From Gammaproteobacteria bacterium (GTDB taxonomy: Bacteria > Pseudomonadota > Gammaproteobacteria > Arenicellales > JAANXG01), in the NCBI GenBank assembly GCA_024639325.1, contig JAHEIO010000008.1, positions 1 to 64,000 on the forward strand: a stretch of 64,000 nucleotides of DNA. The letters run 5' to 3'. Under the pieces are notes generated by a model. It searched no databases. It saw only the letters and a program-made list of their open reading frames with translations, and had not been told where the DNA came from. Each line of letters starts with the position of its first letter. Positions within the stretch are counted from its first letter, which is position 1. Both the position numbers and the translations under genes were made by a program. Below are positions 9,198-57,431 of the stretch, one piece after another.

Positions 9198-9226
9198 CTA
9201 GCCGCCTGTTGAGAAATGCGGGCTAG
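9198..9226. repeat. REP-like palindrome
   Basis: ctagccgcctgttgagaaatgcgggctag; reverse complement of the 23162 copy with few mismatches. Confidence 0.6.
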
Positions 9227-9281
9227 CTCGTTCCTCGGAGCGCGGCACTTGATTATCAAAGCGAAAAAGGAGGCAGCAGTT

Positions 9282-10370
9282 ATGTCTGGCAGCGCCTGTT
9301 TGAGCAACGTACCGGATAAATTCGACGCGATCCCGCACCAGGTCCCGTTTTTCAAGCACTACCTCGGCGCAGACGGCAAACGGAACATCCCTGATCAATA
9401 CCGTCGCAATACCCTGGGCACCCACTTCCAGGGTATACAGCGAATCGGCAACCACCTGATCGTATCGGGGGGCATCAAAGACAGCCGATCTCAGCTGGTG
9501 GTGATTCAGATGGCATCACAGGACCCGACCGGCCCCTGGTCGTGGCCGCGATACCACCCGGACTACAGCTACGAGAACCCGGATCCGCTCGATCAGGGCA
9601 CCCTGGTCGTCGAAGTGGATACCGCGAAATGGCACGCCGGAGGCATCCAGGCCCTGGGCACCCTGGTCGCCGTACCGGTCTATGGTGACGGGAACGGCGG
9701 CGAGATCCGTTTTTTTGATTTCGCCGACCCCGCGGCACCTGCCGAACTAACCGATTTGCGGCTGTCCAAGGCGACGAATTCCAAGGCGGTGGCCCTGACC
9801 CGGCTGCCCAACGCCGGTGTCATGTTGCTGGTTTGGGACGACGACCGGCTCGACTTTCACTACACAGAATCCCTGGATACCGGATTTACGATCCATTGCC
9901 AAACGCTGGCTAAGCACGAGGTGCCGGATTTCGACCACGATCCCAGCTTTCAAAACATCAATTTTGTAATGGACTGCGATGTCACCGACGCGGTCTACGC
10001 CGTTGCCATGCGGGGTACCACGATCAGCACCTCCAAGCCGAGTCACGCAAGCCTCTACAAGTTCAGCTGGCCGGACCAGGACTTCAGTGCCAAACCGGTA
10101 GCGGAACTCATTCAAACCCGTGAGATCAATGGCTACCCAAAAGTTGCCAATTTCGGCGCGGGCGGGGGTGTCTACGTGGATCGAGGTGCCAACCTGTTTC
10201 TGTACGCCTGTGATTACTATCTGGAGGATTGGCGCGACGACGATCGATTGAGAGCCCTGCCCCAATTCATACGCGAATTCTTTATCAGGAAACGATTGAA
10301 AATATTCAATTTCCTGGAGTATGCGGAACAGTCATCCGAAGCCATGCCTCTGGAAATGCAGGACAGGTGA
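9282..10370 (+). CDS. Hypothetical protein, possible beta-propeller
   Basis: Good SD (aaggagg) before ATG 9282. Repeated beta-type motifs (IQRIGNHLIVSGG, IQALGTLVAVPVYG, EIRFFDFADPAAPAEL). No confident family. Confidence 0.6.
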   Translation: MSGSACLSNVPDKFDAIPHQVPFFKHYLGADGKRNIPDQYRRNTLGTHFQGIQRIGNHLIVSGGIKDSRSQLVVIQMASQDPTGPWSWPRYHPDYSYENPDPLDQGTLVVEVDTAKWHAGGIQALGTLVAVPVYGDGNGGEIRFFDFADPAAPAELTDLRLSKATNSKAVALTRLPNAGVMLLVWDDDRLDFHYTESLDTGFTIHCQTLAKHEVPDFDHDPSFQNINFVMDCDVTDAVYAVAMRGTTISTSKPSHASLYKFSWPDQDFSAKPVAELIQTREINGYPKVANFGAGGGVYVDRGANLFLYACDYYLEDWRDDDRLRALPQFIREFFIRKRLKIFNFLEYAEQSSEAMPLEMQDR

Positions 10371-10396: not shown

Positions 10397-13300
10397 TCAG
10401 CGGTCGCGCCGTCCTGCCCAAGGTGCCACCAGGTTTACCAGGCCCCGGATGTGCTCGCGCGGCAACCCGTCAGTCGCTTGTTTAGGTTTTTTATTCAGCA
10501 TCATCTGGATGAACAGCAGCAGATCGTACACCGAAGACCATTGGCGCCTGCTGCCTATCCGGCGCCTGATGTTTTGATATACATTTTCGATTTCGGTGAC
10601 GAGTTCGTCATCGCTGGCGGTGATCCCGGCTTGTTTTCTGATCGCCTTGTTCAATAAAAACAGCATCAAGCAATCCGAAAGTTCGATGGCGCCCCAAAAA
10701 TCAAGGGCGCGCTGAACACGGCCGCGGCATTTGACGACGTGCTGCCTGATAAAATCCTCGAAATCCCGGTTGATTCTTGTGAGCTGACCGCCCTTCGGAT
10801 ACCAGGCTTTGACGATGGCGCCCAGCACGAAGTTTGCAAACGCATAGTCGTCGGGTTTCAAATTCCTTTCGGCGGCCAGGCGGCAGAACGCCGCGGACGT
10901 GAAATGCGGCATCGCACTCTCATGTTCGCCCACCCAGGCGAGGCCATAATAACGGTACATAAGATCGAGGGACTCATCAATGCCTGCATGTTCGTCGGTC
11001 ACCATAGCCTGACGGCGATAAGCACTCGCCATGATCGAGAGTACTTTACCGCGATTTGACGACGACCCGGTCACGTGTCCATAGTCGAGAATTTGTTTGA
11101 GCCTCCCTATGCTGCCGCGCGCCAGATCTCGCGGGTCTTCCTCCAGCGTGGCCTTGGCCTCTTTCGTTTCGATCTCCACCGCGTGGCGGGCCTCGAAATT
11201 GGCGAGTTGCTCAAGATCCTCGAACGATATCGCCGACGCATTCGTACGAAGCGCGGCCCGGATCAGGATAATCGCGGATTTCAGATCACCCAATTCCCCG
11301 TACGCTCTTGCCAATTCTATCAGGGCCCGTACTCGGGGTATTTCCCAGACGTTTTTTCCATTACCCTCGTCAGGATCGCCAAACCGAGCTATGAACTGCC
11401 GATGCAAGTTCTGCAGCCTGCGCAATAAAACGTGAGACTCCTCATCGTTTGCCGTCTTCGCCCCGCTCCTGATGTTTCGCGCTTCGACCTCCCACTCCTG
11501 ATCGGCCCGAAAGTTGATTTCCGCAGGCCCACCATAGCTTGACAGTTTGTCAGACCGTAACCGGTACCCCGGATCACCCCAGCACTGGTAGGCGCCAAAG
11601 GTGTTGGCATGGGGGTGTGCTTTGTATACGTCCAAACGGGCTTGACGCACGGCCTGGGCAAAGGTCCCGCCCGTCAGCAACTCCTCGTAGAACACGCCGG
11701 CAAACAGCTTGGCGGGCGCGTCCTGCACCTCCCAACCGGCCGCGACGACGCACTTCGAGCCCATGCGGATGAACTCGGTTGACAGATTCGCCGCAATATC
11801 CCGGTAGGCCACGTGCTGGTCGATCTTGCGCTCTTCGATGAACCCCAGATGACAACAATTCAAAAACACGAGCTCAGGTACTTTGCGCATTTTTCTCACT
11901 CTGGCGGGAGACAAGACCATGCCGGGTCCAATCACCACACCTGCTTCGTCAGGGGTATTATCATCGCTTTTGCTCTGGCGTTCGTAGGTCCCATGCGCTG
12001 CAAAATGCAATATCGCGTATTCCCGGCACAATAGCTCTTGCACGATCTTCAACGCCAACGAGGTGTCGTCGTTCTCTTCCCTGATTATCGACACAACCTC
12101 AAAACTGCTGTCCTCGGTTATGCAACGGCTAACCTGGTGCGCCTCCTCCCGTGCTCCCCGCAACGACGGATATCGGTCACCCGCCGGCGGGTCCCCTATC
12201 ACCAGGGCCGCGCGGCCTGATGACGGCTGAGGATTTGCTCTGAATTCATCGGTGGCGAGCTGGCGAATGATTTGTTTCGAAACGGCCAGAGGTTCGGGCT
12301 TATCCGCCCAGCCATCGATTAGCATCTCCCAGGGATAACGCGCAGCGTGCTCATCGATACTCAACAGCATCCGGTCAGAGTCCGGGGAGGATTCTTTGAG
12401 TCTGTTGGGCAGAAGCAGTTCGAACAGCGTTCTTTGCGGGCTGGTTACGCTGTTCGGATCGAACGACGTGGTTTCGATGATTTCTTCCAGATAGCGATCT
12501 ACGAATTTTAAGTCGATCGCTTCATACTCCAGTTCCGATCGTGCCCGCCTGGTGTACGTGTTGAATTGCAGACTACCCGATCCGTCGCCCCTGATCGCCA
12601 ATCGGTGCCACCAGTCTACGTTCTGAGCACGGTAAGTTCGCTTCAACCCCCCATCCCTTTCGCTGACGTCATGTTTGGCTTTTATGTTTGAGCGATCCAT
12701 GCCCCGAACCACGTCACCCAGGGCATGGACGGCCTCCAACGCCAGGTCTTGCCACAGCTCGATGAGTTCGATGTTGAAAAGTGTCCGTATCGGTTCCCCG
12801 GGCAGATCCCGCAGCTTCTTGTTTGCGTCAACCGCCGCGCGAATGATGGAAGCCACGCTGTCGTGCAGCGAAACCCCACCGATACCGGATCCAATCAGCA
12901 AAATCGACAGTCCGACCTCGTCCATCGTGCTGCGATCATCTTTCGCGCTATGCCACTCGTCGAGAGAAATGGCATATTTTACGAACGCCAGGGTGAGCGT
13001 TCTCTCCAGCTTCGCCGCAGTGAGCTGGCCATATTCTCCCAAACCAATGACGAGAGCGCCTTCGGGTATGCGTTCGTCCTTTTCCGAGAAAATCACGTCA
13101 CTGGTACCTACGGGACCCGGGTATAAACCCGCTCGGTGCCTCTGCTCGAGGCGGTTGTTCAGGAAGTCATCCAGGGCGCGCTCCGCATGCATAATCGGAT
13201 CATCGATATAGTGGCCGACGGCGACCGGGTATTTGGCATACTTCAGGTTGGCGTGGGCCAGCGTTATGTTCAAAACCGGCTCAATCGGTTCGGGCACGGC

Positions 13301-16009
13301 ACCTCGAATGGAGGACTCCCCAAAACCGATCTGCAGCAGCGTCCGCTCATCCGGCAGGTAGTCGATGACCTCGTCCCGCGCCTCCAGCGCGGCGTCCCAA
13401 CTCATTTCCCCGCGGGCGACACCGACCGGCGGGCTGGTTTGCAGCCGGTCGGTGGTGCCGGTCTCGAGGAGATCCACCCAGGCATCGAAATACTCCACCG
13501 TCGACAGCAACGAACCGTGCTCGGCCGGCATGAACCAGCGTTTGGTGATCTCCCCCGGGATACCGTGTTGCCAAGTTACGATTCCATCCCCGCTCCGGGT
13601 GTACAGAAACCTTACCTTGTCATTCTCGATTTCCGCGTTGCACAGCGTTCGCTCACCGACGCCGGCGATGTACAACATCCGATCGGGATCTATTTCGCTT
13701 CGCGACAGCAGTTCCCTGGCCTCGCGCGCCGACGCCAGGCGTTTCTCATCCAGCGGTTTCCAGTCGCGATCCTTGATCCTTCGGGCCAGATCTTTCCAGC
13801 TTTTCTCGTTTAACCAATCGAGTTGTCCCCAGTTTGGCAGCATCGCAAGCATTCCCGGGTACGCGCTGATGATGTCGAGGATCTTTTCCTTGCTGTTATG
13901 CATGTCCGCCAACGCCAGCAGCCTGACCAGTCTTTCCCGGCCCAGAAGCATCCTGGGAATGGTATAGGACCCGTGGGTTGGCGTCCCCGCCATTAAAAGC
14001 CTGGCGCCGGGGTGCTCCGTCAATCTATTCCAGACTTCCCGGTGTTGCTGGATCATTACCCGCGCGACCAAGCCGCCCATGGAATGGGCCAGGATACGGA
14101 TAGGCTGGGGATCCTCGGTTGCTCGCTGCAAATTTAGTTCTTGGGTCAACTTTTCAGCAAGATGCGACGCCGATCGCTGCAACGGCATCCGCCAGTCGTA
14201 GGGATAAACCTCCACATGATGGGTGGCGCTCAAATAGTCGATCAACTCGCCATAGTGGCTGGAAAACAGATGCTCCGCTGTCACGCCCTCCTCGTCGATG
14301 CCGAGGCGCTTCATCCCGCCCAGGGTAAGGCGTAAATAGTTCGCCCACACGTTATCGCCATCCGCATCCAGAGTACTGCCCAGAACCCCGGGTAGCACGT
14401 ACACAACCGGTCCGGGTTTCAGCGAACGGCTGACGCGCCCGCGTGGAATCGCGACGTCCTTCGGCATACTGTGCTGAACGAATCGGTCCGCGTCTTCATA
14501 AATCAAACGGCGAACGATCTGCTCCGCGGAATCACGGTTCTCGAAGTAATTGAAGTGACTTACCTCGTCCCCCTGCAGGAACATCTTTCGAATACCGTCG
14601 CTCCGCTCGGATCCTCCGTCCATGGACGCGGTATTTACCACCAGATCATGTTCGCCGCCAAAAAACTGGTCCATTATCCACAACGGCGCCTTCTTCCATC
14701 CCTTGGCTTCGGTGTCTCCGGCGACGACGGATAGATCGGCCGGTACCGGCACTCTGGGATTGTTGAGCAGATGGACGAGCGCGCTGGAAGGCATCTGCGA
14801 ATACAGCCCGGGCAATACGACCGGCTTGGTGCCGGCCTTGAGCACGCCGAGTGAGAAGGTCTTGAACGCTTGGTATATCGGATTGATTCCCACGGATGGA
14901 ATCAATCCAACAACATTAAACACGCGGTTGGCCCAGCGGCCCAGTTTTCCGGATGCCAGGGTAGTCCCCCGGGCCGGACAAGCCACCCTGACGAACCGGT
15001 CCACGGAAATCTGTTTATCCCGGAGCAGTCGATTGACCTCCTTAACCCGCTTGACTTCCTGCACGCGGTAATCGCGAATCAGGTCGATGACCTTATCGCC
15101 GAGGTCCTGGAATCCTCCGCGCGTGGCCTCAAGCTCCTGTTCGAACAACATCTGTTCCTCCGGCAGTATGGGATCCACACGGCGTGAACCACGGCAAAGC
15201 AGCTCCCCCACGAGCCCGCCACGGGAATGCGACAACATATGCAGTTGGATGCCTCGGGGCAGAGGCCCGAGTGCCGACAGCACGTTCTCTATGGGACTTT
15301 CGGTCAGCGTGCAATGTTCCAGAGCAATTATCCGGTCCTGATAAAATCCACGCAGCCTGGACAGGTACGCGGATCCTTCAGACCACAGCCCGCCGAAGCT
15401 TCCCTCCGTGGACGACATCGTTCCGTGTAAAAGCAACAACCAGGGATGATCACCGCCCGTCTGTATATCACCAGATTTTATCTGTTCAAGTTTTGCCTGA
15501 TGATCCTGAAGTTCGACCCTGCAAAGACTGGTTACTCCCGCGGTGGAAATTTGTTTCTCAATGCCTCTCGCCAGCAGGTACGAGACGCCGTCGATTACCG
15601 GTTCGACCGCGAGATCCTTGATTTTTTCCTCTATCTGCTCGGCGCTGGGCAGCTGCACTTTTACGCCGCGCACCGCCTGAACCGGGTTTTCCAGGGCGTC
15701 GCGGGCGTCGCCTCTGGCAAATAAGTAGGGATTGAGTTCCACGGCACCGCCGCGGCTGGTCAGGTCGAGCTCTGCCATTTCCTCGTGGGTGACATACCAG
15801 ACGCTTCCGTCGGCGAGTTCGAGCTCAAGAATCTCGTCATCCGTCAATTCCTGCACGACCTTTACGCCATCTGCCGCGCGGGATGGCTTAAATACCATGC
15901 TGAATGTGTAATCCACGCCGATGACATCTTCTATGAGGTCGTTACTCTCCGCGCCAAGTTCTTTGTAGTCTTGCGTGGTGTCGATAACGTTTGAGAGGGC
16001 AATTTTCAT
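10397..16009 (-). CDS. 1870-aa multidomain protein: two alpha/beta-hydrolase (lipase-like) domains, CHAT peptidase domain and helical/TPR-like C-terminus
   Basis: Hydrolase 1: LLLLHGTMSSTEGSFGGL...MLSHSRGGLVGE. Hydrolase 2 (LCAT/PGAP1-like): VYVLPGVLGSTLDADGDNVW...ILAHSMGGLVARV. CHAT: LRGAREEAHQV...ILHFAAHGTY...LVFLNCCHLG. Long alpha-helical tail. Confidence 0.85.
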   Translation of the reverse strand: MKIALSNVIDTTQDYKELGAESNDLIEDVIGVDYTFSMVFKPSRAADGVKVVQELTDDEILELELADGSVWYVTHEEMAELDLTSRGGAVELNPYLFARGDARDALENPVQAVRGVKVQLPSAEQIEEKIKDLAVEPVIDGVSYLLARGIEKQISTAGVTSLCRVELQDHQAKLEQIKSGDIQTGGDHPWLLLLHGTMSSTEGSFGGLWSEGSAYLSRLRGFYQDRIIALEHCTLTESPIENVLSALGPLPRGIQLHMLSHSRGGLVGELLCRGSRRVDPILPEEQMLFEQELEATRGGFQDLGDKVIDLIRDYRVQEVKRVKEVNRLLRDKQISVDRFVRVACPARGTTLASGKLGRWANRVFNVVGLIPSVGINPIYQAFKTFSLGVLKAGTKPVVLPGLYSQMPSSALVHLLNNPRVPVPADLSVVAGDTEAKGWKKAPLWIMDQFFGGEHDLVVNTASMDGGSERSDGIRKMFLQGDEVSHFNYFENRDSAEQIVRRLIYEDADRFVQHSMPKDVAIPRGRVSRSLKPGPVVYVLPGVLGSTLDADGDNVWANYLRLTLGGMKRLGIDEEGVTAEHLFSSHYGELIDYLSATHHVEVYPYDWRMPLQRSASHLAEKLTQELNLQRATEDPQPIRILAHSMGGLVARVMIQQHREVWNRLTEHPGARLLMAGTPTHGSYTIPRMLLGRERLVRLLALADMHNSKEKILDIISAYPGMLAMLPNWGQLDWLNEKSWKDLARRIKDRDWKPLDEKRLASAREARELLSRSEIDPDRMLYIAGVGERTLCNAEIENDKVRFLYTRSGDGIVTWQHGIPGEITKRWFMPAEHGSLLSTVEYFDAWVDLLETGTTDRLQTSPPVGVARGEMSWDAALEARDEVIDYLPDERTLLQIGFGESSIRGAVPEPIEPVLNITLAHANLKYAKYPVAVGHYIDDPIMHAERALDDFLNNRLEQRHRAGLYPGPVGTSDVIFSEKDERIPEGALVIGLGEYGQLTAAKLERTLTLAFVKYAISLDEWHSAKDDRSTMDEVGLSILLIGSGIGGVSLHDSVASIIRAAVDANKKLRDLPGEPIRTLFNIELIELWQDLALEAVHALGDVVRGMDRSNIKAKHDVSERDGGLKRTYRAQNVDWWHRLAIRGDGSGSLQFNTYTRRARSELEYEAIDLKFVDRYLEEIIETTSFDPNSVTSPQRTLFELLLPNRLKESSPDSDRMLLSIDEHAARYPWEMLIDGWADKPEPLAVSKQIIRQLATDEFRANPQPSSGRAALVIGDPPAGDRYPSLRGAREEAHQVSRCITEDSSFEVVSIIREENDDTSLALKIVQELLCREYAILHFAAHGTYERQSKSDDNTPDEAGVVIGPGMVLSPARVRKMRKVPELVFLNCCHLGFIEERKIDQHVAYRDIAANLSTEFIRMGSKCVVAAGWEVQDAPAKLFAGVFYEELLTGGTFAQAVRQARLDVYKAHPHANTFGAYQCWGDPGYRLRSDKLSSYGGPAEINFRADQEWEVEARNIRSGAKTANDEESHVLLRRLQNLHRQFIARFGDPDEGNGKNVWEIPRVRALIELARAYGELGDLKSAIILIRAALRTNASAISFEDLEQLANFEARHAVEIETKEAKATLEEDPRDLARGSIGRLKQILDYGHVTGSSSNRGKVLSIMASAYRRQAMVTDEHAGIDESLDLMYRYYGLAWVGEHESAMPHFTSAAFCRLAAERNLKPDDYAFANFVLGAIVKAWYPKGGQLTRINRDFEDFIRQHVVKCRGRVQRALDFWGAIELSDCLMLFLLNKAIRKQAGITASDDELVTEIENVYQNIRRRIGSRRQWSSVYDLLLFIQMMLNKKPKQATDGLPREHIRGLVNLVAPWAGRRDR

Positions 16010-16015
16010 CTGTTC

Positions 16016-16740
16016 CTAGTGCCGGCTTTGGAATAGTCTAAATGTGTGTATCTTTCGCAGAAATTCCTCGTGGGTGAGCCGTATCTCACTTTGGAGAGTC
16101 GTGCAGTCATGCGTCACGGACTGCATCGCATCTACATCGATCACGTCCATGACTTCCCCTGGTGCAAATCGTTCTACGTCGTAGACGCTACCGAAAATCT
16201 GCTCCATCAGCGTCTGGTCCGGAACGCGGCTGTCATTTGCCGGATATCCGAGCACGACGATTCGCTGTTGCGCGCTCACGGTCCGGGCAAGCGAGATCAC
16301 CCGGCGATTGTCCAGCGATCCTTCGACGCGAAAGAACGCCATGTCGTATTCGTCATCGTCTTCGATATGCAGCACTTCGGAAAGCTGGAATTCCTCCTGA
16401 TCCGGCCGGCCATGCTCCTCTCTAGGGTGCTGCGGCGACGCGCATCGAGCGCCTTTTTCAGCACCTCGTCTTTGATCTCGCCTACGTTGTAGCTGCCGTC
16501 TTCATTGATCGTGCCGAAAAAGCGCGCGACCGTATCCCGGTTTTCCAACACGAACTGCTTGATGGCCTTGGCCCGGGCCGCCTCATCGATTTGTTGCAGG
16601 CTTTCTACAGCCAGGGCTTTCACCGCATCGACCAGGGCGCTAAAGCTGTTAGGGGCAGCGTGACGCGCATCCCGTCGCCAGCACTGCCGCTATGACCAGC
16701 GCGGTGGCCCGGTTGCAATGCATCGATATATTAGCCATCG
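16016..16740 (-). pseudogene. Decayed trypsin-like serine protease lipoprotein
   Basis: Lipoprotein leader MANISMHCNRATALVIAAVLATGCASRC, frameshift, then NSFSALVDAVKALAVESLQQIDEAARAK..., second frameshift, then EVLHIEDDDEYDMAFFRVEG...IVVLGYPANDSR...VTHDCTTL. The segment expected to carry the catalytic GNSGS is missing. Confidence 0.65.
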
Positions 16741-17030: not shown

Positions 17031-18428
17031 ATGTCAGCGCTTGCGGATTTCGAGAAAACCTGTTTCGTCATCATGCCCTTCAACAAGAAGAAGGTCGGTG
17101 CAATAACCGTGGACTTCGATGCGATTTACGAAAACGTCTTCGAACCCGCGATTCGACAGGCCCGCCTTCCGGAAGGCGGTGAACTGGAAGTCCACCGCAC
17201 CGACGCGGACGAGTTTTCGAGCTCCATCACCCAGGATATGTATGAATACATAACGTACAGCCGCATCGCATTCACCGATATCAGCGGGTTCAATCCTAAC
17301 GTAATGTACGAACTCGGCATACGCCACGGCGCTCAGGAATCCGGCACCGTCATATTCAGACAGCCCGGCATCAGCATTCCGTTCGATATCGCCACGATCA
17401 AGATCTTCGAGTACGACTTTGGCTCAAAAAAGAAGATTGACGACTCCAAAGTTTTCATTACCAATCTATTGACTACTACGCTGCAAAGAAATCGATTGGA
17501 CAGCCCGGTGCGGCAGGCCCTTCGGGCACAAAAGACACTTTCCGATCAGCAGACCGGGCCAGCCGCCGTCTCGAGGGATGATCGGAGTGCGGCGGCGCAT
17601 GGCGAGCGGACCTCAATACTCGATACCGTCCTTTGTGCGGCGGAAGAAGCCCTGCGAACGGAAAATTGGGAAACCGCGAAAACGCTGTACACCGTGGTGC
17701 TCCGGCATGATCCCGCCAATGCGGCGGTGCGCATGCGCCTCGGACTGGTACTCCGGAAGATGGGCGATCCCTACGCCGCGCTGGAGCAGTTCTCGTGCGT
17801 GACCCAGTTCGCACCCGATTACGGCGAGGCCTGGCGGGAAAAAGGCGTTGTCGAAAGCCGTATCCATCGGGGATTCGAAGCCAATCCGCCCGCGTGGATG
17901 CCCGACGGCCAGAATTCCCTGAAGCGCGCGGTCGAAATCAACCCGAAGGACTTCGATGCCTGGGCGTCCTGGGGCGGGGTGCTGCGGCGCAAGCCGGACT
18001 ACCCCGCGGCTTTGGAAAAATATCAGCACTCGACCGAGGTTTCGGACGGCCATCCGTACCCGCTTTTGAACGTGCTCAAACTCGAGGCGAAGTCAACCGG
18101 CAAGCTGTCGTTGCAGGGAAGAAAAAACCATTTGAACACCGCGGAAGAACTGCGCAAGGGCCAGAGTAACAGCGTTCCTCCGGTCGATACGCCCTGGTGT
18201 TTCTTTGACCTTGCCGAGCTGAGGCTTTATCAGAAGGACAGGGAGGGATTCCTGGAACATCTCGACAACGGCCTGAAGCATTGCGACACGGCCTGGCAAA
18301 TCAAAACATTCCGCAATGCGCTCAAAGAAACGCTGGTCGATTCCAATATCCGTTTGCCCGGTCTTGCTGTGGGAATGAAAAAACTCGACAAAGCGCTGGC
18401 CAGCCGGATAGGCGCGGTAAAACTATAA
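17031..18428 (+). CDS. 'FVIMPF' nucleotide-sensor/TIR-like N-terminal domain fused to TPR repeats (465 aa)
   Basis: KTCFVIMPFNKKK...IYENVFEPAI...YSRIAFTDISGFNPNVMYELGIRHGAQESGTVIFRQ resembles nucleoside-deoxyribosyltransferase/TIR-like domains; C-terminal TPRs (NWETAKTLYTVVLRHDPANAAVRMRLGLVL...). Confidence 0.72.
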   Translation: MSALADFEKTCFVIMPFNKKKVGAITVDFDAIYENVFEPAIRQARLPEGGELEVHRTDADEFSSSITQDMYEYITYSRIAFTDISGFNPNVMYELGIRHGAQESGTVIFRQPGISIPFDIATIKIFEYDFGSKKKIDDSKVFITNLLTTTLQRNRLDSPVRQALRAQKTLSDQQTGPAAVSRDDRSAAAHGERTSILDTVLCAAEEALRTENWETAKTLYTVVLRHDPANAAVRMRLGLVLRKMGDPYAALEQFSCVTQFAPDYGEAWREKGVVESRIHRGFEANPPAWMPDGQNSLKRAVEINPKDFDAWASWGGVLRRKPDYPAALEKYQHSTEVSDGHPYPLLNVLKLEAKSTGKLSLQGRKNHLNTAEELRKGQSNSVPPVDTPWCFFDLAELRLYQKDREGFLEHLDNGLKHCDTAWQIKTFRNALKETLVDSNIRLPGLAVGMKKLDKALASRIGAVKL

Positions 18429-18432
18429 GTCA

Positions 18433-18494
18433 GCTCTGATCAATGGTGTCATTGCGCGCCGAAGCTGCGAGCGAAGCGTGGCAGTACGCGGCAC
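18433..18494 (+). repeat. Dispersed intergenic repeat, half copy
   Basis: ctctgatcaatggtgtcattgcg..ccgaagctgcgagcgaagcgtggcagtacgcggc matches the reverse complement of 31877-31943 and part of 57432-57465. Confidence 0.75.
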
Positions 18495-18583
18495 TCTTGA
18501 GAATTTTTGCTATACATCCGACTTCGATTACACTAGCTTGAGCGTTGCGCCCGGTGCGTCCCGAAAACGCGAAGGAGGTAACA

Positions 18584-21500
18584 GTGTCCATTCACGTACG
18601 CGAGGTGGTCCTCGAGTTTTTACGCCACGGCCACGCACATAACCAGTTGTTGTCGCCGTTTACCCGCTACCTCGCGTTGTGCGGATCCCATCCGGCGGTG
18701 ACGCTGACGGTACCTTTCGAGCACCGTGAACTCCAGCACCTGTTGTCGCGGATGCGCTATGAGCAGGGTAAGGACAGCATCTACGCGCGCAATCAGCTGT
18801 CGAAGGCGGTGACGGCAATGCTGGAACAGATTCCCGCCCTGCCCCATGAGGGCCGCGTCGACGACGATCAGATCCTACACCTGCGCTTGATGATCACACC
18901 ACAAGAACTCGCCCTGCTGCCCTTCGAGCTCGCTGAACCCCCAAGCGGCTTCAAGGCCGGCGGGCAGCCGCTGCTGATCGGCCCGACACCGGACGTCGTC
19001 CTGACGCGCGAAACACGCCGTACCGGAAGCGTCCAGATCCAAGTGCCACACAAGCCAAAACTGCTGCTGGTTGCCGCTGACCCAAAGGGATATGGCATTC
19101 CTTACGATGCGCATCGCAAGGCGCTCGCAGCCGCCTTCGGGCCGTGGGTGAGACCGCGGATTCGCGACGGTGCGCTGAGCAGAGACCTCGGCGCCCGCCT
19201 CGTCGTGCTGGAACGCGCGTCGCTCGACGAAATCCGCGATCAGTGCGCAACCGGCAACTTTACCCACGTGCATATACTGGCCCATGGCGATGAACTGAAC
19301 GAGCCCGGCCGGGAGGGCTTCGGCCTTGCGTTGTGGGACCGCCAGAAGACCGGCCCCGAAGTGGTCGACGGCGCCGCTCTAACACGTGCGCTGCTGCCGC
19401 CGCGGGACGACAGTTCGTGGGCTGCTCCGTGGTGCGTCGTGCTATGCACCTGCGACAGCAGCAACATCGGCGGCGTCGTCCATCCCACTGCGAGTCTCGC
19501 CCACGCCCTGCACGTCGCGGGCGTCCCGTTTGTCCTGGCATCGCAGTATCCGTTGACGTTCGGCGCGGCAACCACCATGACCAGTACGTTCTACCCGCTC
19601 GAGCTGCGGGGCGAAGACCCGCGGCGGACGCTGCGCGACGTGCGCCACGCGATCGCTTCGCGCATGCGCCAGACCCACGACTGGGCGAGCCTCGTCGCCT
19701 ATGCCAGCTGGCCCGCGGACCTGCCGGCTCAGCTCGAGGCGATCCGGGTCATACGCGCGTTCGCGCAACTCGAAGCGGCGCAGGATTGGGCCGACCGCAC
19801 CATAGCCGGCGCCGAAGGTTGCACGCAGAGCGACGATACGGCTGCGTCATTCACAAATATCCTGCGGCGCTCGCTGGCACTGGTCAAAGCCGCTTCGACC
19901 CGGCTCGAACAGGAGGCCGCAGCCAACGAGAAACAGCAACAGGAGATATTCCGCCGCGATGAGTTGCACGAGATATCCAAACACGAGAGGCAGCATCAGC
20001 TCGGATCGGTGACCGCCCTGCTCACGGAGATCTATGGGTTGCTGGGCTCCGCCAATAAGCGCCGCGCGCGGCTGCTTGACCATCTGGGAGCCGCTGATGA
20101 AGCCCGCGGCGCGTTGCGCGAAGCGGCGGATTGGTACCTCAAGGGGGTTGCCTTGCAGGCGCCGGAGCATTGGACTGCGTGCCAGTCCTTCGTGATGATC
20201 GGGCTCGGCTGCGGCGACAATGGCTGGGCCAGTGACGCGGAACGCAAGCGCGCTCAGGAGCAGTGGCAGAGCGCACTCGACGTCGCTACCCGCGCACTCG
20301 ACGACCCGGTTGAGCGGGTCTGGGCGTACGGCACGCTCGTCGAAGTAGAGCTGTGGCGGCCGGAGTTCGGCACCCGGACGGAATCGGCCGCGGAAGCCCC
20401 GCGCCCGGCAGAATGCGCCAAACGGCACGTCGAAAAACTGATTGAAGCCGCCGGAAGCGATCGGTTCCCGTTGAAATCGACGGTGCGTCAATTGAGGCGC
20501 TACCGGGACTGGTGGGGCAAGGCCGGCTACATCAAACCGGACATGCTCGAGCAGGTCGAAAAAATACTCGAAGAGTTTGAAGGGCTCGTGCCGGTTGACG
20601 ACGAACAAACGGATCCTGGCAAGCTGGAACCGGACCTCGAGGAGCGTTTCGAGGATGCCACCGTCGATCAGGTGCTCGGCAGCGGCGAGGTCCGGCGTGT
20701 CGACATCGGAAAGCCGGGGGCAGAGAGCACAGCGTTTCGCATACAGATGCTCCCGGCCCGGCAGGGCGATGCGCTTTGGATTGAGTACGGTGCCGCCGAT
20801 GACCTGCATCGCATTCTGCTCGACGGCGGGTTCCGCACGACAATCCGCACCGTGGAAGACCGAATCAGAGCGCTTGCGGACGCACCGGGGAATCCCAACG
20901 GCAAGTGCCACTTCGAACTCGGCGTCGTCTCCCACATCGATGCGGATCACATCGAGGGGATCGTGGAGCTACTCGGCGCGGCCATGCCGGTGACGTTCGG
21001 CGACTTCTGGTTCAACGGCCGCAAGCACCTGGATCTCCCGGCGGTGCAGCCTTCCATCGACGATGACTCCACGCTCGGCGGCAAGCACGGGCTGTTCCTC
21101 GACACGGCGCTGGAGTTGAGCAAAACGAGTTGGAACAGGTTCTTCGGCGGCGGTCCCGTGGTGGTCCCAACCAGGCCTAAATCGCTGCCCAGCGTTGAAC
21201 TGCCGGGCGGCATGAAACTTACTCTGATGTCGCCGACTCCGACGAAACTGGAGGCGCTCGCCAAGCGCTGGGATGACGAGGTCCACGAAGCGGGGCTCGA
21301 CGGCGCGACTTTCAAACAGGTGCTGCGTGCCATGGACAAGCTGCACTACCGCATCGGTGCGCTCGACCAGGAACTGCTGGGACGCAAAAAACCCTCTGGG
21401 CCGGTTGATGTCGAGGAATTGCTCAAGATACCCGACGGCGCGGACGAGTCACCGGCCAATGGGTCGAGCATCGCCTTTCTCGCGGAATACGACGGCCGTA

Positions 21501-21904
21501 AATGCTTGTTCATGGCCGACGCCCATCCCGACGCCATGCTGGCCGCGATCGACCGGATCGCCGGCAAGGGGAAACGGCTCGCCGTGGACGCGGTAAAGCT
21601 GTCCCATCACGGCAGTGGCAACAACGTAACGCTCGAATTGCTCCGGCGGCTCGACTCGCGGGTGTTCATGGTATCCACGAACGGCGGAGGCGGCCACTAC
21701 CATCCGGACCGCCAGGTCATCGCGAAACTTATTGCCGGCGACTGGCGGCCGATCGACGAGGACAACATCATCACCATCCTCTTCAACTACCGATCGGAGT
21801 ACACGGAGATCTGGGACGACCAGGCGCTCAAGCGGCGGTACCACTATGCCGTCGAATACGCCACCGCCGGAGACATCCTTGAGCTGTCGATCGGAACCCA
21901 GTGA
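18584..21904 (+). CDS. CHAT domain - helical linker - metallo-beta-lactamase (ComEC-like) fusion protein; GTG start
   Basis: SD gaaggaggt before GTG 18584. CHAT: FTHVHILAHGDE...CVVLCTCDSSN. MBL: VVSHIDADHIEGI, CLFMADAHPDAML, VKLSHHGSGNNVT, STNGGGGHYHPD. Confidence 0.85.
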   Translation: MSIHVREVVLEFLRHGHAHNQLLSPFTRYLALCGSHPAVTLTVPFEHRELQHLLSRMRYEQGKDSIYARNQLSKAVTAMLEQIPALPHEGRVDDDQILHLRLMITPQELALLPFELAEPPSGFKAGGQPLLIGPTPDVVLTRETRRTGSVQIQVPHKPKLLLVAADPKGYGIPYDAHRKALAAAFGPWVRPRIRDGALSRDLGARLVVLERASLDEIRDQCATGNFTHVHILAHGDELNEPGREGFGLALWDRQKTGPEVVDGAALTRALLPPRDDSSWAAPWCVVLCTCDSSNIGGVVHPTASLAHALHVAGVPFVLASQYPLTFGAATTMTSTFYPLELRGEDPRRTLRDVRHAIASRMRQTHDWASLVAYASWPADLPAQLEAIRVIRAFAQLEAAQDWADRTIAGAEGCTQSDDTAASFTNILRRSLALVKAASTRLEQEAAANEKQQQEIFRRDELHEISKHERQHQLGSVTALLTEIYGLLGSANKRRARLLDHLGAADEARGALREAADWYLKGVALQAPEHWTACQSFVMIGLGCGDNGWASDAERKRAQEQWQSALDVATRALDDPVERVWAYGTLVEVELWRPEFGTRTESAAEAPRPAECAKRHVEKLIEAAGSDRFPLKSTVRQLRRYRDWWGKAGYIKPDMLEQVEKILEEFEGLVPVDDEQTDPGKLEPDLEERFEDATVDQVLGSGEVRRVDIGKPGAESTAFRIQMLPARQGDALWIEYGAADDLHRILLDGGFRTTIRTVEDRIRALADAPGNPNGKCHFELGVVSHIDADHIEGIVELLGAAMPVTFGDFWFNGRKHLDLPAVQPSIDDDSTLGGKHGLFLDTALELSKTSWNRFFGGGPVVVPTRPKSLPSVELPGGMKLTLMSPTPTKLEALAKRWDDEVHEAGLDGATFKQVLRAMDKLHYRIGALDQELLGRKKPSGPVDVEELLKIPDGADESPANGSSIAFLAEYDGRKCLFMADAHPDAMLAAIDRIAGKGKRLAVDAVKLSHHGSGNNVTLELLRRLDSRVFMVSTNGGGGHYHPDRQVIAKLIAGDWRPIDEDNIITILFNYRSEYTEIWDDQALKRRYHYAVEYATAGDILELSIGTQ

Positions 21905-22071
21905 GCTGCCTCTAGATTAATGACTCGGCATTTCTCGTCGTTACGAGGCACCGTTTACGGCACAGTCCCGCGGTCCATTGGCCCGCAGGGCTCGATTGTC
22001 ATTACAGTAGCTTTGCTACTCCCCATACCTCGATGGAACGACGCCTCCGCTTACCCAACCCTGGAGAGATG

Positions 22072-23148
22072 ATGAAGAACATTGTTATTTGTTGTGATGG
22101 AACCGGCAATCAGTACGGTGCGGCCAACACCAATGTCGTGAAGCTATTCCGGGCACTGGACCTCAGCGGTGATGCCGGCACGCAGCAAGTCGCTTTTTAC
22201 GATCCGGGCGTCGGCACCGGAAACCCGCGCGGTGCGATCACCCGCAGCCGCGTCGTCGCCAGTCAAATCCTAGGACTCGCTTTCGGCGTCGGCGTCTTCC
22301 GGAACATATCCGACGCCTACCGCTATTTAATGGAGGAATATGAACCCGGCGACCATGTCTATATCTTCGGCTTCAGCCGCGGCGCCTACACCGCCCGCGC
22401 GCTGACCGGCATGCTCCATATGCTCGGTCTGCTACACTCGGGGAGCTGGAACCAGATTCCCTACGCCCTCGAGCTCTATCGCAAGCGGGTGCCCAAAGAC
22501 GAGGACGGGAAAGCCGAGCACTTCAAAACCGCGCGCGGCTTCAAGGATACTTTCTCACGTGAATGCAAGCCCCACTTCATCGGGGTATGGGACACGGTGA
22601 AGACGGTCGGAGTCTGGGACGCGCTGAAGATCCAGGCGAAATGGCAAACCGCACTGCCCTACACCTTCTCCATGCCGGACGTCGCGTTTGGGCGTCACGC
22701 CATATCCATCGACGAGAGGCGGAGCCGCTTTCGTCCCAATATGTGGAGCCATCGTGAGGACAACACCATGCAGCAGGTGTGGTTTGCCGGTGTCCACTCG
22801 GATATCGGCGGGGGATACAAAGAATCGGGGCTTTCCGATATTGCGCTCAATTGGATGCTCAAAGGCGCGCAGCATCAGGGGCTCTCCCTCCGCGCGGACG
22901 CCTATGATCAGATCCATCCGGCGCCGACGCAGGAGATGCACAACTCCTTGACCTGGAAGTGGATCGCGGCGGGCTGGAAACGCCGCGCGGTGCGCGGCCC
23001 CGGCGAGTGGAACGAACAAACAAAGTCCTGGGCGGCTCGACCGCCGTCGGTCCATGAAAGCGTTCGAATCCGCATGGACAGTACGGACTACCAGCCTGGC
23101 TTGCCGGCTGACGCCCGCTTCGTCGACGACGGCTGGGACTCCGATTGA
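22072..23148 (+). CDS. DUF2235 domain-containing alpha/beta-hydrolase (predicted phospholipase-like)
   Basis: KNIVICCDGTGNQYG..NTNVVKLFRAL...YDPGVGTG...HVYIFGFSRGAYTARAL. Start could be 22069 or 22072; ORF open from 22033. Confidence 0.88.
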   Translation: MKNIVICCDGTGNQYGAANTNVVKLFRALDLSGDAGTQQVAFYDPGVGTGNPRGAITRSRVVASQILGLAFGVGVFRNISDAYRYLMEEYEPGDHVYIFGFSRGAYTARALTGMLHMLGLLHSGSWNQIPYALELYRKRVPKDEDGKAEHFKTARGFKDTFSRECKPHFIGVWDTVKTVGVWDALKIQAKWQTALPYTFSMPDVAFGRHAISIDERRSRFRPNMWSHREDNTMQQVWFAGVHSDIGGGYKESGLSDIALNWMLKGAQHQGLSLRADAYDQIHPAPTQEMHNSLTWKWIAAGWKRRAVRGPGEWNEQTKSWAARPPSVHESVRIRMDSTDYQPGLPADARFVDDGWDSD

Positions 23149-23161
23149 CCCGTATTTCTCA

Positions 23162-23192
23162 CTAGCCCGCATCGCTCACCAGGCGGCTATAG
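23162..23192. repeat. REP-like palindrome
   Basis: ctagcccgcatcgctcaccaggcggctatag, 14 bp after the DUF2235 stop; related to 9198-9226 and 4015-4098. Confidence 0.6.
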
Positions 23193-23345
23193 AATCTCGT
23201 TAAGCATGGCAAACATTGAGGTCTATGGATTTGTCCAAAAAACAGCGTGTCTCGGAAACGCCTATCCCGGCGCTGGCTGGTCCAGATCGCGATGTACTTG
23301 GGCTTCATCGGCACCCGTCCTGCGCCATCGCTCGGAGTCCGGATG

Positions 23346-24899
23346 TCATCGAACGATTGCCGAGGAACGCAGCACCGCTTGCTCCGCGTTTACGCGGCCA
23401 AAACCGTAGTCGTCGTGATGCCCATTAGCGTCATATACAACACCACCAATCTTATCCGCGCTGTCGCGCATGATCTGGCGCAGCTGATCCCGTTTAAGGT
23501 CGATATTGGCGGATAGCGCCAGAGCCGCGCAGCCGGCTGCGCAGGGGGCCGCGAAACTGGTGCCGGTAGACGTTCCATACGTGTTGCCGGATTTTGTGCT
23601 GTAAACATCCACCCCCGGGGCGATAAGTTCAACGGCGTTTCCTCTCGCGGCGTTATCCTCCAAGTCATTCGAATCAGACCTAACCACTGCGATCACATCA
23701 TCGTGTGAAACGACTTCATCCAAACTCACATCGACGTTATGACCGTTGCTGGCCGCCCAGAAAATAGTGAGTCCAAGGCCGTTGCGTCCATTCATTGCGG
23801 CGCTTTCCAACGCCATCTCCAGCGTCGCGGTCAAATTCCAGACCGCCCCGTTGGGACCAAGGCTGCAAACGAGGATATCCACTCCCCGCGCTGGATCCGC
23901 ACCCGCCGCTTCGTTGGAAAAATTCGCGGCATAGCCCACCGCCCTGGCAAGGGTCGTCTGGGTGCCTACTTGATCACCAAGGCAGGAGATCAATACGAGT
24001 TCGCAAGCCGGTGCAGCCCCGCAGCCACCGTTTCCGTTGTTATGACGGGCACCCACCATTCCGGCACAAAAAGTACCGTGGTTGCTGTCCGGCATTCCGG
24101 CTGTGCCCTGCTGGAAAACGGTATTACCGCCGCTCGATTCAAAGAATCCGGATTCGGGCGCCACCCCCGAAGCCAGGTCTGCATGGTCTGCATCAAAACC
24201 ATTGTCGATGACGCCGACCCTGACCTCGGCCCCCAGCGACAGATCCCAGGCCCCCTCAGCCCTGACGTCCGCACCAAGGGTGCCGCCGTTGGCGCCTAAA
24301 TTATTCCACTGCCATTGCTCCGTGTAATCGGGATCCGAGGGAACGAACCGCTGCGGAATATGTTCCACAAATGAGGGTTCGGCCAGGGTAAAGCGCGGAT
24401 CGTCATGCAGCGCCACGGACGCTTCCAGCGAATCCGCCCAGCGGTTTGCGTTGACCTCGAAAAGGTTCGGAGCGAATTTCAGCACCGTCAGCACCTCGAG
24501 ATCGTGCTCAGCGAGGATCTGCAGACACTCATCAGCGTTGTACTCGGGCTTGAGTTGCACATTTATGCGAGTGGTAGTGATACCTACGGAGCCATCGTCT
24601 CGGCGGATGATCTTTCCGACTTCTTCGGCGTTGTCGAACCTGCGGTGGGTTTCCACGGCGCGGACTAGATCATCGGATGGCACCACGAACAACCAATTCG
24701 CCGTGGCGAACGCCTCCGCGGTCTCCCGCGGCATGATTTGTTCCGTTTCCGAACGAAGCGCAGGTTCAGCGGAAGCGCCGAACGAGGGCGCCCCGGCCTT
24801 GGGGACGCCTTGTTCATCGGTTGATACGTGGACCGCCGTTACGTTGGGAACCTCTTCAACCTCGATACGGCGATCCCGTATGAAATAATGACGTTTCAT
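23346..24899 (-). CDS. Subtilisin-like (S8) serine peptidase, no obvious signal peptide
   Basis: Catalytic triad motifs VGVIDNGFD, NHGTFCAG and GTSFAAPCAAG; SD ggaga before ATG. Confidence 0.9.
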   Translation of the reverse strand: MKRHYFIRDRRIEVEEVPNVTAVHVSTDEQGVPKAGAPSFGASAEPALRSETEQIMPRETAEAFATANWLFVVPSDDLVRAVETHRRFDNAEEVGKIIRRDDGSVGITTTRINVQLKPEYNADECLQILAEHDLEVLTVLKFAPNLFEVNANRWADSLEASVALHDDPRFTLAEPSFVEHIPQRFVPSDPDYTEQWQWNNLGANGGTLGADVRAEGAWDLSLGAEVRVGVIDNGFDADHADLASGVAPESGFFESSGGNTVFQQGTAGMPDSNHGTFCAGMVGARHNNGNGGCGAAPACELVLISCLGDQVGTQTTLARAVGYAANFSNEAAGADPARGVDILVCSLGPNGAVWNLTATLEMALESAAMNGRNGLGLTIFWAASNGHNVDVSLDEVVSHDDVIAVVRSDSNDLEDNAARGNAVELIAPGVDVYSTKSGNTYGTSTGTSFAAPCAAGCAALALSANIDLKRDQLRQIMRDSADKIGGVVYDANGHHDDYGFGRVNAEQAVLRSSAIVR

Positions 24900-24964
24900 T
24901 ATCAGTCTCCAGTGATTCTCGTCGAACGAACTCTAAAACTATACTTACGCACTTACGCAAAACT

Positions 24965-25951
24965 CTAAGACAGAACGCCGGAGATCAGCGATACTCGGGT
25001 ACAGTCTTCCCCCCTGCAGCCCTGGACCGGGCAGGTAAAAGACACGACACACGATCCGATGCTCTGGAAATCAGTCTCTCCACGGACCAGTATGCCTTCG
25101 ACTTCGTGCGTATTGGCATTGAAGACCGGAGAACCTGAATTTCCTCCATAGGTGTCCAGATTCGCGACGAAGAACTCTTCATTGTCGTTGCTTCTTACTT
25201 CTGCTTCTCCGGCTAGCTTTTTCGGTAATCCTGCGGGATGACCAATCACATAGAGCCTGGTGCCGTCGGCTACTTTGTTGGATCGCTGAATGACCAACGA
25301 TGTCCTGCCCTCCACCTTTCGATCCAATCTGACCACCGCCCAATCCGCCCCGTCGTTGTCAAGCTCCCAGCCAAGCAGCTCGGTGCCGGCGTAGACGTCC
25401 GCTGACGGGACGTTTACCGCGGCCTCATTCTCGGAAATCATGTGATATCCAAATACAAAGCGACGCGTGCCGATATTGCTTTGATTCAGGCAGTGACCAG
25501 CCGTGGCGACCAAATCCTCTCCAACCAAAAAAGCGGTACAAATCGCGCCGGCGGGCTGCGATCGAAACGGCTCGTCGTCACAAAGAGGGCTTCCGCCGCC
25601 CTCGAACTGTTGGGCCATAGTGGAAGACGGAAGTGACACGGTTCCATCTCCGTTGTCTACTACGTCACTAGTTTTGAATATTGCGGCGACGCTGCCGGAG
25701 TTTCGTAGCGCGTCCTGGTCTTGCACGTCTTTGATTTCCTGTCTGTCGTCTTCCCCGTATATGACTTTTTGGCGAGCCACTATCTCGTTGGCAATGTCTT
25801 TGGAAGAATAGCTTTCGAGATCTGGCCGGGGTTCCCTGGATATCGCGTTACTGGATGCGGTCAAATCCAAACCTGATTTCAATTTGCTCCGAGAACGTAA
25901 TTCTTCGCGCAGTTCCGATATGCTCATGGAAGGCAACGACTTATCATTCAT
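24965..25951 (-). CDS. Trypsin-like (S1/V8-type) serine peptidase; likely start 25951
   Basis: CTAFLVGEDLVATAGHC, GADWAVVRLDR, TYGGNSGSPVFN triad; SD gagagg before ATG 25951. Confidence 0.88.
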   Translation of the reverse strand: MNDKSLPSMSISELREELRSRSKLKSGLDLTASSNAISREPRPDLESYSSKDIANEIVARQKVIYGEDDRQEIKDVQDQDALRNSGSVAAIFKTSDVVDNGDGTVSLPSSTMAQQFEGGGSPLCDDEPFRSQPAGAICTAFLVGEDLVATAGHCLNQSNIGTRRFVFGYHMISENEAAVNVPSADVYAGTELLGWELDNDGADWAVVRLDRKVEGRTSLVIQRSNKVADGTRLYVIGHPAGLPKKLAGEAEVRSNDNEEFFVANLDTYGGNSGSPVFNANTHEVEGILVRGETDFQSIGSCVVSFTCPVQGCRGEDCTRVSLISGVLS

Positions 25952-26124
25952 TCCGAATACCTCTCTCACAGGACAAGATTGTCCGATAAATGCTCCGCTA
26001 GCCTGGTGTTTATTGATGTGGCATTACCCACAGAACTCAACTAAACGCGATGCTCTTGTTTCTGCGGATGCGTTACTCATGTATGCGTGCTCGACTTAGT
26101 TGACAGCATCGTGTCTGTTATGAA

Positions 26125-26580
26125 TCAACTTGACTTGTATGTCAAAGCAAAGTCCAGGATCCGCGTCCTGCCCCACCAGACTTTGCCAAGGTACACACCC
26201 GGTTCCACCTCGCGGATTTCGTCACGGACTTTTTTGAAGAAAAAAGAAGTTTCCGAGTAGTCGATAACAATAGTTTCCTTATCGTCCATCCAGCTTTTCT
26301 CCTTGTAAACCTTGGCCACGACGAAGGTCAGGCTGAACGGAGTTATCTTGTTGATCAGGATACCGCTCGTTTTGTCCGGCGGGAACATATCGAACACCTT
26401 GCCCTGCCAGGCGAACAGCCTGGCGAAGCGAGCGTAAACTTTTGCCAGCGAGGAGCCCGTAACTATGGCTGTTCCTCGTGTATCTCCATCGGGAATTTGA
26501 CCTGGTTCCGCCTGTTTGTAAATCTCATCCAGTTCGTCGCGCGATTTTTCGAGCCATTTCTCAACACTCTCGTTCATCAT
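26125..26580 (-). CDS. Hypothetical protein (151 aa), likely co-transcribed with the upstream haem peroxidase
   Basis: Strong SD (aaaggaga) before ATG; 39-bp gap to the peroxidase stop; no recognised family. Confidence 0.7.
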   Translation of the reverse strand: MMNESVEKWLEKSRDELDEIYKQAEPGQIPDGDTRGTAIVTGSSLAKVYARFARLFAWQGKVFDMFPPDKTSGILINKITPFSLTFVVAKVYKEKSWMDDKETIVIDYSETSFFFKKVRDEIREVEPGVYLGKVWWGRTRILDFALTYKSS

Positions 26581-26619
26581 GGGTCTCCTTTCATTATTGG
26601 ACTCTCGTCAATGGCGGTT

Positions 26620-29520: not shown

Positions 29521-30118
29521 TTACGCCTGCTTATCCATTGTTCTGGTGTAATTAACTTACTCTAGTACGATTCTTACTACAATCACGGGGTCAATGTTCT
29601 GCTGCACAGTACAGCTCCTCTGGAAAACCCAACGAATATCTCGCCGGGCTTTCATTCTTGGTCTGGCGTTTACGTTTTGTTGCACCAACGCCTGAATCGA
29701 GATATCGGCGGCCGATGCCGGCGCCGGCCCTCGTGCGTACATCGAGGCCCTTGCCCAATCTTCGTCAAACTCCAAACATTATTCTGTGGCAAAAATCACA
29801 TGCTGCCGGTTATGGCACTCGCCGGCCGGACAGGTTGGCGTTAAACAACACAGAGCGCAATCAGCTGCTCGGTAGCCGAGGCCTTCAGGGGAATCTACTG
29901 TTCATTCTTCACCGGCAGCACCACGAGGATGACATCCTCGGGCTCGAGCTGTAAAGTTGTACACGAAAGTGGACCGGCCAAGGCATTTGCAGTCCATCGG
30001 CTCAGGCTGATTGAATTCCCATCAAAGGAGATGCTTCGGATGGGAATCGCTCCGGTTAGGGGTCGCTTGTCCGACAACCGATAAACTATAGGCTCGAAAT
30101 ATCATTGGGACAGGGCGA

Positions 30119-31435: not shown

Positions 31436-31818
31436 GCGAACAGTCCCCATTACGGGAAGCATCCCACGAATAGACGGGCTTGATCATGTATATGATACCG
31501 GCCGTTCACCAATCCAATGAATCAAAATCCGTGGACAATTCGAAGCTACCGAGCAGTCGTTCAATTCGAACACGATTTCATCTTGTTGGTATATACCAAT
31601 CGGCAGCAATCCGTACTGACGGTCAATTGTTCTGACGAACTGCGCTCTATCTTTCTTGCTAAACGCTATTCGTAGTGCCTAAAATAAACGAACTCTATGA
31701 TTGAATAAGGCAAGAACCCCGCCCCTGACCAAGCAGGGTTCAGGCGGCGCTGGATGTGCTACCCGTAAATCCCATATCAATAAAAAAATCAGGCAACCTC
31801 TTATAAATTCAGTATTTG

Positions 31819-31943
31819 GTCATCGCGAACGAAGTGAAACAATCCAGCACCCTAGTTATTCGAGAACTTATGGATGGCCGCGTCCTGCCACGCTTCGCTC
31901 GCAGCTTCGGGACGCTCCTCGCAATGACACAATTGATCAGAAC
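31819..31943. repeat. Dispersed intergenic repeat, full-length copy
   Basis: catcgcgaacgaagtgaaacaatccagc...gccgcgtcctgccacgcttcgctcgcagcttcgggacgctcctcgcaatgacacaattgatcagaact; related to 18433, 44340 and 57432 copies. Confidence 0.8.
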
Positions 31944-32043
31944 TCCCCCAGATGTTTCTGACGCGATGAGTTAGGCAGCCCTGAAAGTGGTGCTCGTTAT
32001 GATAAGCACGCCAATCGACAACAAAACCGTGTATTGGTTTTTT

Positions 32044-33165: not shown

Positions 33166-33168
33166 ACC

Positions 33169-35085: not shown

Positions 35086-35387
35086 CGCTCACAATCTCCA
35101 GAAACAACAAGCCTATACACGGATGAGGCTACTCATATATCCCCATCTCCTCCAGAATCGCATCGACAACGCGCGTCGTCAAAGTATCGAGATTGCGTCT
35201 GGAATCCCGAATGTCAAATTTTGCCACAGTGTCGGCCAACCGGCCCAGCGCCATTTGACAAAGTGATACGCCTGTTGGTTTCTTCGATTGCATGAGCCAA
35301 GATATACTAATGCCATTGCGACAGGATGTTTTTTCGTGGTTGCGGAATCTTCTCGATCATGGTTGACAAAAAACAGGAGGTAAAGTC

Positions 35388-39014: not shown

Positions 39015-39037
39015 ACTATCTTTCCATCGGACAGGCC

Positions 39038-57321: not shown

Positions 57322-57431
57322 ACCCTTCCCCCGATCAATATTAATAACCTATTGAAAATCATAATGCGTTTTGGCCGTTTCGCAAGCTCGCTCCGGTGAT
57401 CAAGAACGCTGAAGTTCGGTTTTTCGACCGT

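Follow-up and report, generated by a model that had tools for sequence, protein, structure and literature searches.

Caspase-fold domains paired with alpha/beta-hydrolase genes are already known. In the VMAP conflict systems a caspase-superfamily domain never occurs without an alpha/beta-hydrolase gene next to it, and trypsin-NucA-subtilisin conflict systems with lysozyme effectors have been described as well (Kaur et al. 2020, PMC7159879). In bacterial gasdermin operons, genes for caspase/CHAT or trypsin occur together with those for amidase, lysozyme and phospholipase (PMC9612521). In the window studied here, the whole analysed stretch of 64,000 nucleotides from a Gammaproteobacteria bacterium, two hydrolases and a CHAT domain are encoded in one chain by a single open reading frame (ORF) of 1870 aa (10397-16009, minus strand), which starts with ATG and has no internal stop. 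Its family resembles the systems of PMC7159879 in the pairing of a caspase-fold or trypsin peptidase with an alpha/beta-hydrolase and in the neighbouring trypsin-Endonuclease_NS, subtilase, lysozyme and STAND proteins, but in those systems the hydrolase is a separate gene within MoxR-vWA or GTPase systems whereas here it belongs to the same chain. No vWA-MoxR-VMAP core was seen next to the giant gene. The core of the trypsin-NucA system (system 3 of PMC7159879) is incomplete beside the giant gene, where the adjacent trypsin gene is broken and no Endonuclease_NS occurs among the neighbours scanned, while G035, a genome of the same family as that of the window, has both. The gasdermin operons (PMC9612521) are similar in that caspase/CHAT or trypsin is coupled to an executioner that damages the membrane and that amidase, lysozyme or phospholipase genes lie nearby; there the executioner is a pore-forming gasdermin, whereas here it would be a protease-fused pair of lipases. 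What appears to be new is the fused single-chain architecture. A literature search on DUF7379, on CHAT with lipase and on CHAT with metacaspase, macro or phospholipase returned no paper on it, subscription journals being mostly outside its coverage.

The regions of the protein, from the N- to the C-terminus, are as follows.

15650..16009, minus strand: beta-rich, poorly conserved N-terminal region (aa 1-120; AlphaFold DSSP)
14465..15562, minus strand: hydrolase 1, DUF7379 (aa 150-515; S262, D455, H485; Pfam 102 bits)
13415..14422, minus strand: hydrolase 2, LCAT/group XV PLA2-like (aa 530-865; S643, D808, H831; Pfam LCAT, Foldseek and PDB profile)
13298..13414, minus strand: weakly conserved linker and candidate cleavage region (aa 866-904; low-confidence ends)
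12674..13297, minus strand: M17_N/macro-like domain (aa 905-1112; Foldseek, PF02789 in relatives, PDB profile)
11540..12442, minus strand: CHAT cysteine peptidase domain (aa 1190-1490; H1339, C1386; Pfam 101 bits)
10400..11539, minus strand: fast-evolving TPR tail (aa 1491-1870; all-helical model, TPR structures matched)

The domain order is thus beta-rich N-terminus, DUF7379, LCAT-group XV PLA2-like, M17_N-macro-like, CHAT and TPR tail. AlphaFold2 models were built with family alignments for two overlapping halves of the protein (mean pLDDT 86.3 for aa 1-905 and 84.9 for aa 880-1870), and together with Foldseek they concur with this order. The sequence-only reading had described an 1870-aa ORF with two hydrolases and a CHAT peptidase in one chain. 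The ORF is intact, with its four motifs at the positions given there: the nucleophile elbow SHSRGG of hydrolase 1 (S262 codon at 15224-15226), AHSMGG of hydrolase 2 (S643 codon at 14081-14083), HFAAHG of CHAT (H1339 codon at 11993-11995) and NCCHLG of CHAT (C1386 codon at 11852-11854). DUF7379, LCAT and CHAT are all above their Pfam cut-offs, and the domain parsing proposed in that reading recovered two hydrolase folds and a CHAT fold from the AlphaFold2 models with Foldseek. NCBIfam holds no naming model for the protein, and a phmmer search of the single window protein against the PDB gave nothing useful, so that family profiles were required. The strongest 19-residue hydropathy is 1.49 and no transmembrane segment was found; neither a transmembrane helix nor a signal is therefore expected, and the protein is predicted to be cytosolic.

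Both hydrolases are predicted from their sequences to have complete lipase-type triads. Hydrolase 1 matches DUF7379 (PF24096) at 102 bits (cut-off 33) in three stretches, and hydrolase 2 matches LCAT (PF02450) at 29.6 bits (cut-off 21). The same reading had staked its case on triad and dyad residues being present, and in the alignment of near-full-length relatives D455, H485, D808, H831, H1339 and C1386 are each identical in 76/76, as is S643, with S262 conserved in all 75 relatives that have a residue at that position. The model of the N-terminal half lies nearest to lysosomal (group XV) phospholipase A2 and LCAT, followed by bacterial triacylglycerol lipases. For hydrolase 2 the Foldseek match to 4x92 has an E-value of 1.6e-9, and in the PDB profile match to group XV PLA2 (E 8e-10) the Ser, Asp and His regions align. 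Fold and catalytic Ser-Asp-His order are common to hydrolase 2 and group XV PLA2/LCAT, but the identity is about 16% and hydrolase 2 is fused inside a giant cytosolic bacterial protein. Hydrolase 1 gave weaker profile matches to family I.5 and thermostable bacterial lipases (E about 0.002-0.01). The DUF7379 profile also matches hydrolase 2, so the two hydrolases appear to be related to each other. The substrates of both could be other than phospholipids. The Pfam entry for DUF7379 is uncharacterised and says nothing on the remaining architecture, and the strongest DUF7379 matches in the class-wide sample were mostly ORFs of 1.8-2.0 kaa of the kind described here.

The CHAT domain (PF12770; 101 bits, cut-off 24) has a caspase-like fold in the model with the His-Cys dyad residues intact, and it is a predicted peptidase. 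The model of the C-terminal half matches SAVED-CHAT, gingipain R, Craspase TPR-CHAT and TPR proteins. The CRISPR CHAT proteases (Craspase TPR-CHAT and SAVED-CHAT) share the CHAT fold, and Craspase also the TPR helices; unlike them, the giant protein has no SAVED match, carries its TPR region C-terminal to CHAT and brings its own hydrolases. The C-terminus had been described as long and helical, and while it is all-helical in the model, it is more exactly a TPR superhelix. TPR gave a weak Pfam match in the window protein, and TPR-S (PF20308) was matched in 2 of the 10 members scanned and in a shorter variant (L014), with no match in the window protein. Besides the hydrolases and CHAT, which had been listed correctly, a conserved domain at aa about 905-1112 had been overlooked. 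Foldseek paired it with macro domains (TMt 0.65-0.73) and with the N-domain of M17 aminopeptidases. At the sequence level M17_N has moderate support: PF02789 was matched in 11/35 members with the window protein itself having no match, one natural variant is above the Pfam cut-off, and the PDB profile match has an E-value of 5e-5. No match to the Macro family of Pfam was seen for the window protein or in any of the 35 members. The C-terminal metallopeptidase domain of M17 has no Pfam match in the window protein or its relatives; as an N-domain-like part alone is present, M17 aminopeptidase activity was rejected.

Mean identity to the window protein among the 76 aligned relatives is highest in CHAT (40%), followed by hydrolase 1 (37%), hydrolase 2 (35%) and the middle domain (34%), and drops to just 18-20% in the N-terminus (18% for aa 1-150), the linker region of aa 871-920 (18%) and the TPR tail. 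The pLDDT falls below 50 at aa 866-870 and 901-905. No conserved cleavage motif was found in the linkers of the family, which are simply variable. A second genome of the same genus encodes an equally long ORF that is 95% identical to the window protein. Between the window gene and this same-genus ortholog dN/dS is about 0.18, with CHAT (0.11) the most constrained, followed by hydrolase 2 (0.14) and hydrolase 1 (0.16). The close ortholog, the low dN/dS and the invariant catalytic residues in 76 near-full-length relatives argue that the architecture is not a product of chance.

When genome contigs were scanned with an alignment of 10 members, at least 177 relatives were recovered. Loci were fetched for the best-scoring 80 of these, their genes were called as ORFs, and 76 near-full-length proteins were aligned. 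The fetched relatives belong to at least six phyla (Pseudomonadota, Bacteroidota, Nitrospirota, Thermodesulfobacteriota, Myxococcota and Acidobacteriota), which are mixed within the tree, making horizontal transfer likely. Near-full-length relatives were also detected by tblastn on plasmids of Azotobacter, Paracoccus, Ensifer and Burkholderia. The architecture had been called unusual; the combination of two lipase-like modules with CHAT is real, but in this family, which is widespread and has probably spread horizontally, it is the rule. The distribution is patchy, with the gene present in 5/110 genomes of the order of the window and with seven strong giant ORFs, including that of the window, in 321 genomes sampled from the class. 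In the records examined the family is annotated only as 'CHAT domain-containing protein' or 'hypothetical protein'. A phage-borne origin was not supported, viral contigs holding distant partial relatives alone. When the island was mapped against two same-genus genomes without the gene, the flanking protein tested had no close ortholog there.

Shorter natural proteins shuffle the same parts. Rhizobium leguminosarum 31B encodes an M17_N-like-CHAT-TPR-S protein (the make-up of L014, with no hydrolase at all), R. leguminosarum GLR17 encodes LCAT-M17_N-CHAT, Qingshengfaniella encodes LCAT-trypsin, and Ruegeria encodes DUF7379-CHAT followed by a SIR2/AAA gene. Hydrolase plus protease is therefore a recurrent pairing in which trypsin is able to replace CHAT.

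We looked at the genes around the relatives and in the window. Among the families listed, C14 metacaspases made up 11/108 operon-like neighbours against 0/108 distal genes (four or more positions from the family gene), and TIR proteins 6/108 against 0/108 (Fisher p 7.5e-4 for C14 and 7.7e-6 for C14 and TIR together, values that ignore shared ancestry). In 14/14 fetched loci carrying its family the metacaspase lies on the plus strand, upstream of a plus-strand giant gene, and the metacaspase label changes at least eight times on the family tree. Apart from these, Endonuclease_NS, PG-binding, amidase, M15, nSTAND1 and SIR2 genes occur beside relatives, while many relatives have ordinary neighbours and no defence-type gene alongside. 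In G035 a trypsin-Endonuclease_NS fusion comes after the giant gene, and a gene with an FGE-sulfatase domain comes before. In three Paracoccus loci (L010 6301-9585, L013 6252-9527 and L063 5301-8585) the gene immediately upstream of the giant gene encodes a protein of about 1090 aa, and in L013 the two genes share 4 bases; the protein combines an SBP_bac_3 match with a hydrophobic N-terminal region and is possibly a membrane sensor partner of the giant protein.

In the window, the giant ORF has the following neighbours, among others.

16094-16740, minus strand: decayed trypsin-like gene (broken remnant 16094..16423), upstream of the giant ORF, between it and the TIR-like gene
17031..18428, plus strand: divergent neighbour encoding a TIR-like and TPR protein (PADLOC TIR effector, E 9e-8)
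22033-23148: gene with a Tle1-like (DUF2235) catalytic domain (Pfam), 6 kb from the giant ORF

The trypsin remnant is 42% identical to the trypsin part of the G035 fusion and ends before the catalytic Ser motif. This homology suggests that the window lineage once had a protease partner, and the remnant is probably a former partner of the giant gene. Decay seems to be under way in the lineage, since the same-genus genome G040 carries a differently damaged trypsin copy; the giant gene is still under purifying selection despite this. Three other fetched loci have homologs of the TIR-like/TPR protein close to the family gene.

The region from 17031 to 36230, which lies no more than about 20 kb to the plus side of the giant gene, is a dense conflict-type cluster that encodes TIR-like/TPR, CHAT-TPR-S-MBL, Tle1-like hydrolase, subtilase, trypsin, TIR, two caspases and a PG-binding/pesticin-like lysozyme. 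The CHAT-TPR-S-MBL protein (18545-21904, plus strand) is a 1119-aa fusion whose metallo-beta-lactamase part, joined to a protease, is closest to the MBL proteins of LmuA/Avs1a type in anti-phage systems; it scores 196 bits for PADLOC LmuA and 197 bits for NCBIfam Avs1a, under the cut-off of 420. A redox gene group (26620-29520, minus strand; 36304-39068, minus strand; 44569-46410, plus strand) encodes a haem peroxidase of the animal type, a divergent DyP-type peroxidase, next to which lies an unmatched gene, and what by inspection is a GMC-type oxidoreductase. On the other side, a 384-aa protein with no Pfam match (9216-10370, plus strand) is convergent with the giant ORF and is kept adjacent to it in G040. 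A dispersed repeat of about 62 bp (31871-31932, 57426-57472 and 18446-18492; copies 83-89% identical, also in G040) is possibly a small palindromic repeat element.

On balance, we favour the view that the giant protein is a cytosolic effector of conflict or suicide whose output is lipid hydrolysis. This is supported by the invariance of the catalytic residues of three enzymes across at least six phyla, the PLA2/LCAT-like nature of hydrolase 2, the enrichment of metacaspase and TIR neighbours, the presence of Endonuclease_NS, amidase, PG-binding, nSTAND1 and SIR2 genes and the trypsin-endonuclease fusion beside the G035 homolog, as well as by the hydrolase-protease fusions, the patchy distribution, the probable horizontal transfer, the lack of a transmembrane segment and the VMAP precedent (PMC7159879). 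Counted against it are the missing PADLOC match (PADLOC 2.0 gave 0 families at E 0.1 for the giant protein), the many relatives without a defence-type neighbour and the lack of a conserved cleavage motif. The membrane damage suggested in the sequence-only reading gains indirect support from the phospholipase fold and the metacaspase, TIR, endonuclease and peptidoglycan-hydrolase neighbours. As a mechanism, the TPR tail, possibly with the macro-like domain and the neighbouring TIR, STAND/SIR2, metacaspase and trypsin proteins, would sense or relay invasion or damage, and this signal would switch on the CHAT protease. CHAT may then cut the giant protein itself at the weakly conserved linkers, partner proteases, or both, upon which the two lipases would attack the membrane phospholipids of their own cell and lead to arrest or death. 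That the protein's own CHAT gates the lipases is a tentative proposal, with which the weakly conserved linkers and the natural one-hydrolase-one-protease fusions are compatible.

The conflict setting may also hold with CHAT in another role, where it cleaves other proteins (for example the neighbouring metacaspase or trypsin, which it would activate, or host proteins, which it would destroy), the lipases act in parallel and TPR-driven assembly controls all. The metacaspase being a separate neighbour at a fixed position, the L014 variant that does without any hydrolase and the constraint on the window gene despite its decayed trypsin partner are in keeping with such a role, but both hydrolases are constantly fused with CHAT in 76 relatives and a single hydrolase is fused to CHAT or trypsin in variants, which suggests functional coupling within the chain, and we consider this arrangement unlikely. 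A different proposal is a housekeeping or signalling role in which CHAT would regulate the turnover of lipids (to remodel membranes, handle storage lipid or produce a lipid signal), and for which the haem peroxidase, DyP and other redox genes of the window would hint at oxidised-lipid chemistry. The LCAT/PLA2-like fold, the ordinary neighbours of many relatives and the An_peroxidase and DyP genes 10-23 kb from the giant gene would suit it; however, a gene restricted to 5/110 genomes of its order, the enriched metacaspase and TIR genes and a list of neighbours recurring beside relatives that includes no peroxidase family make it fairly improbable. The Tle1-like gene at a distance of 6 kb would suit a secreted or injected antibacterial lipase effector, a reading that is highly improbable given that no hydrophobic signal or transmembrane segment is present and no recurrent immunity-gene candidate was found beside relatives. 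A T6SS lipase effector was ruled out, the sheath gene VipA (PF05591) having no match in the genome, estimated to be 95.6% complete.

The giant proteins thus appear to be self-destruct or immune enzymes of a so far unstudied family. A bolder and distinctly improbable form of the conflict reading is a death switch in one polypeptide, in which the TPR tail would sense the trigger, the macro-like domain would read a nucleotide-derived signal made by TIR/SIR2 and CHAT would cut the linker to release the phospholipases; if true, caspase-gasdermin pyroptosis would have a lipase counterpart that unites protease and membrane executioner in one molecule. If the conflict reading itself is right, there would be, beside gasdermins, a widespread bacterial coupling of a caspase-fold protease to membrane destruction by way of a fused PLA2/LCAT-type phospholipase. 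It would assign DUF7379 a function, extend metacaspase-linked conflict systems by a phospholipase arm and provide a case in which proteolytic control over lipid hydrolysis can be tested directly.
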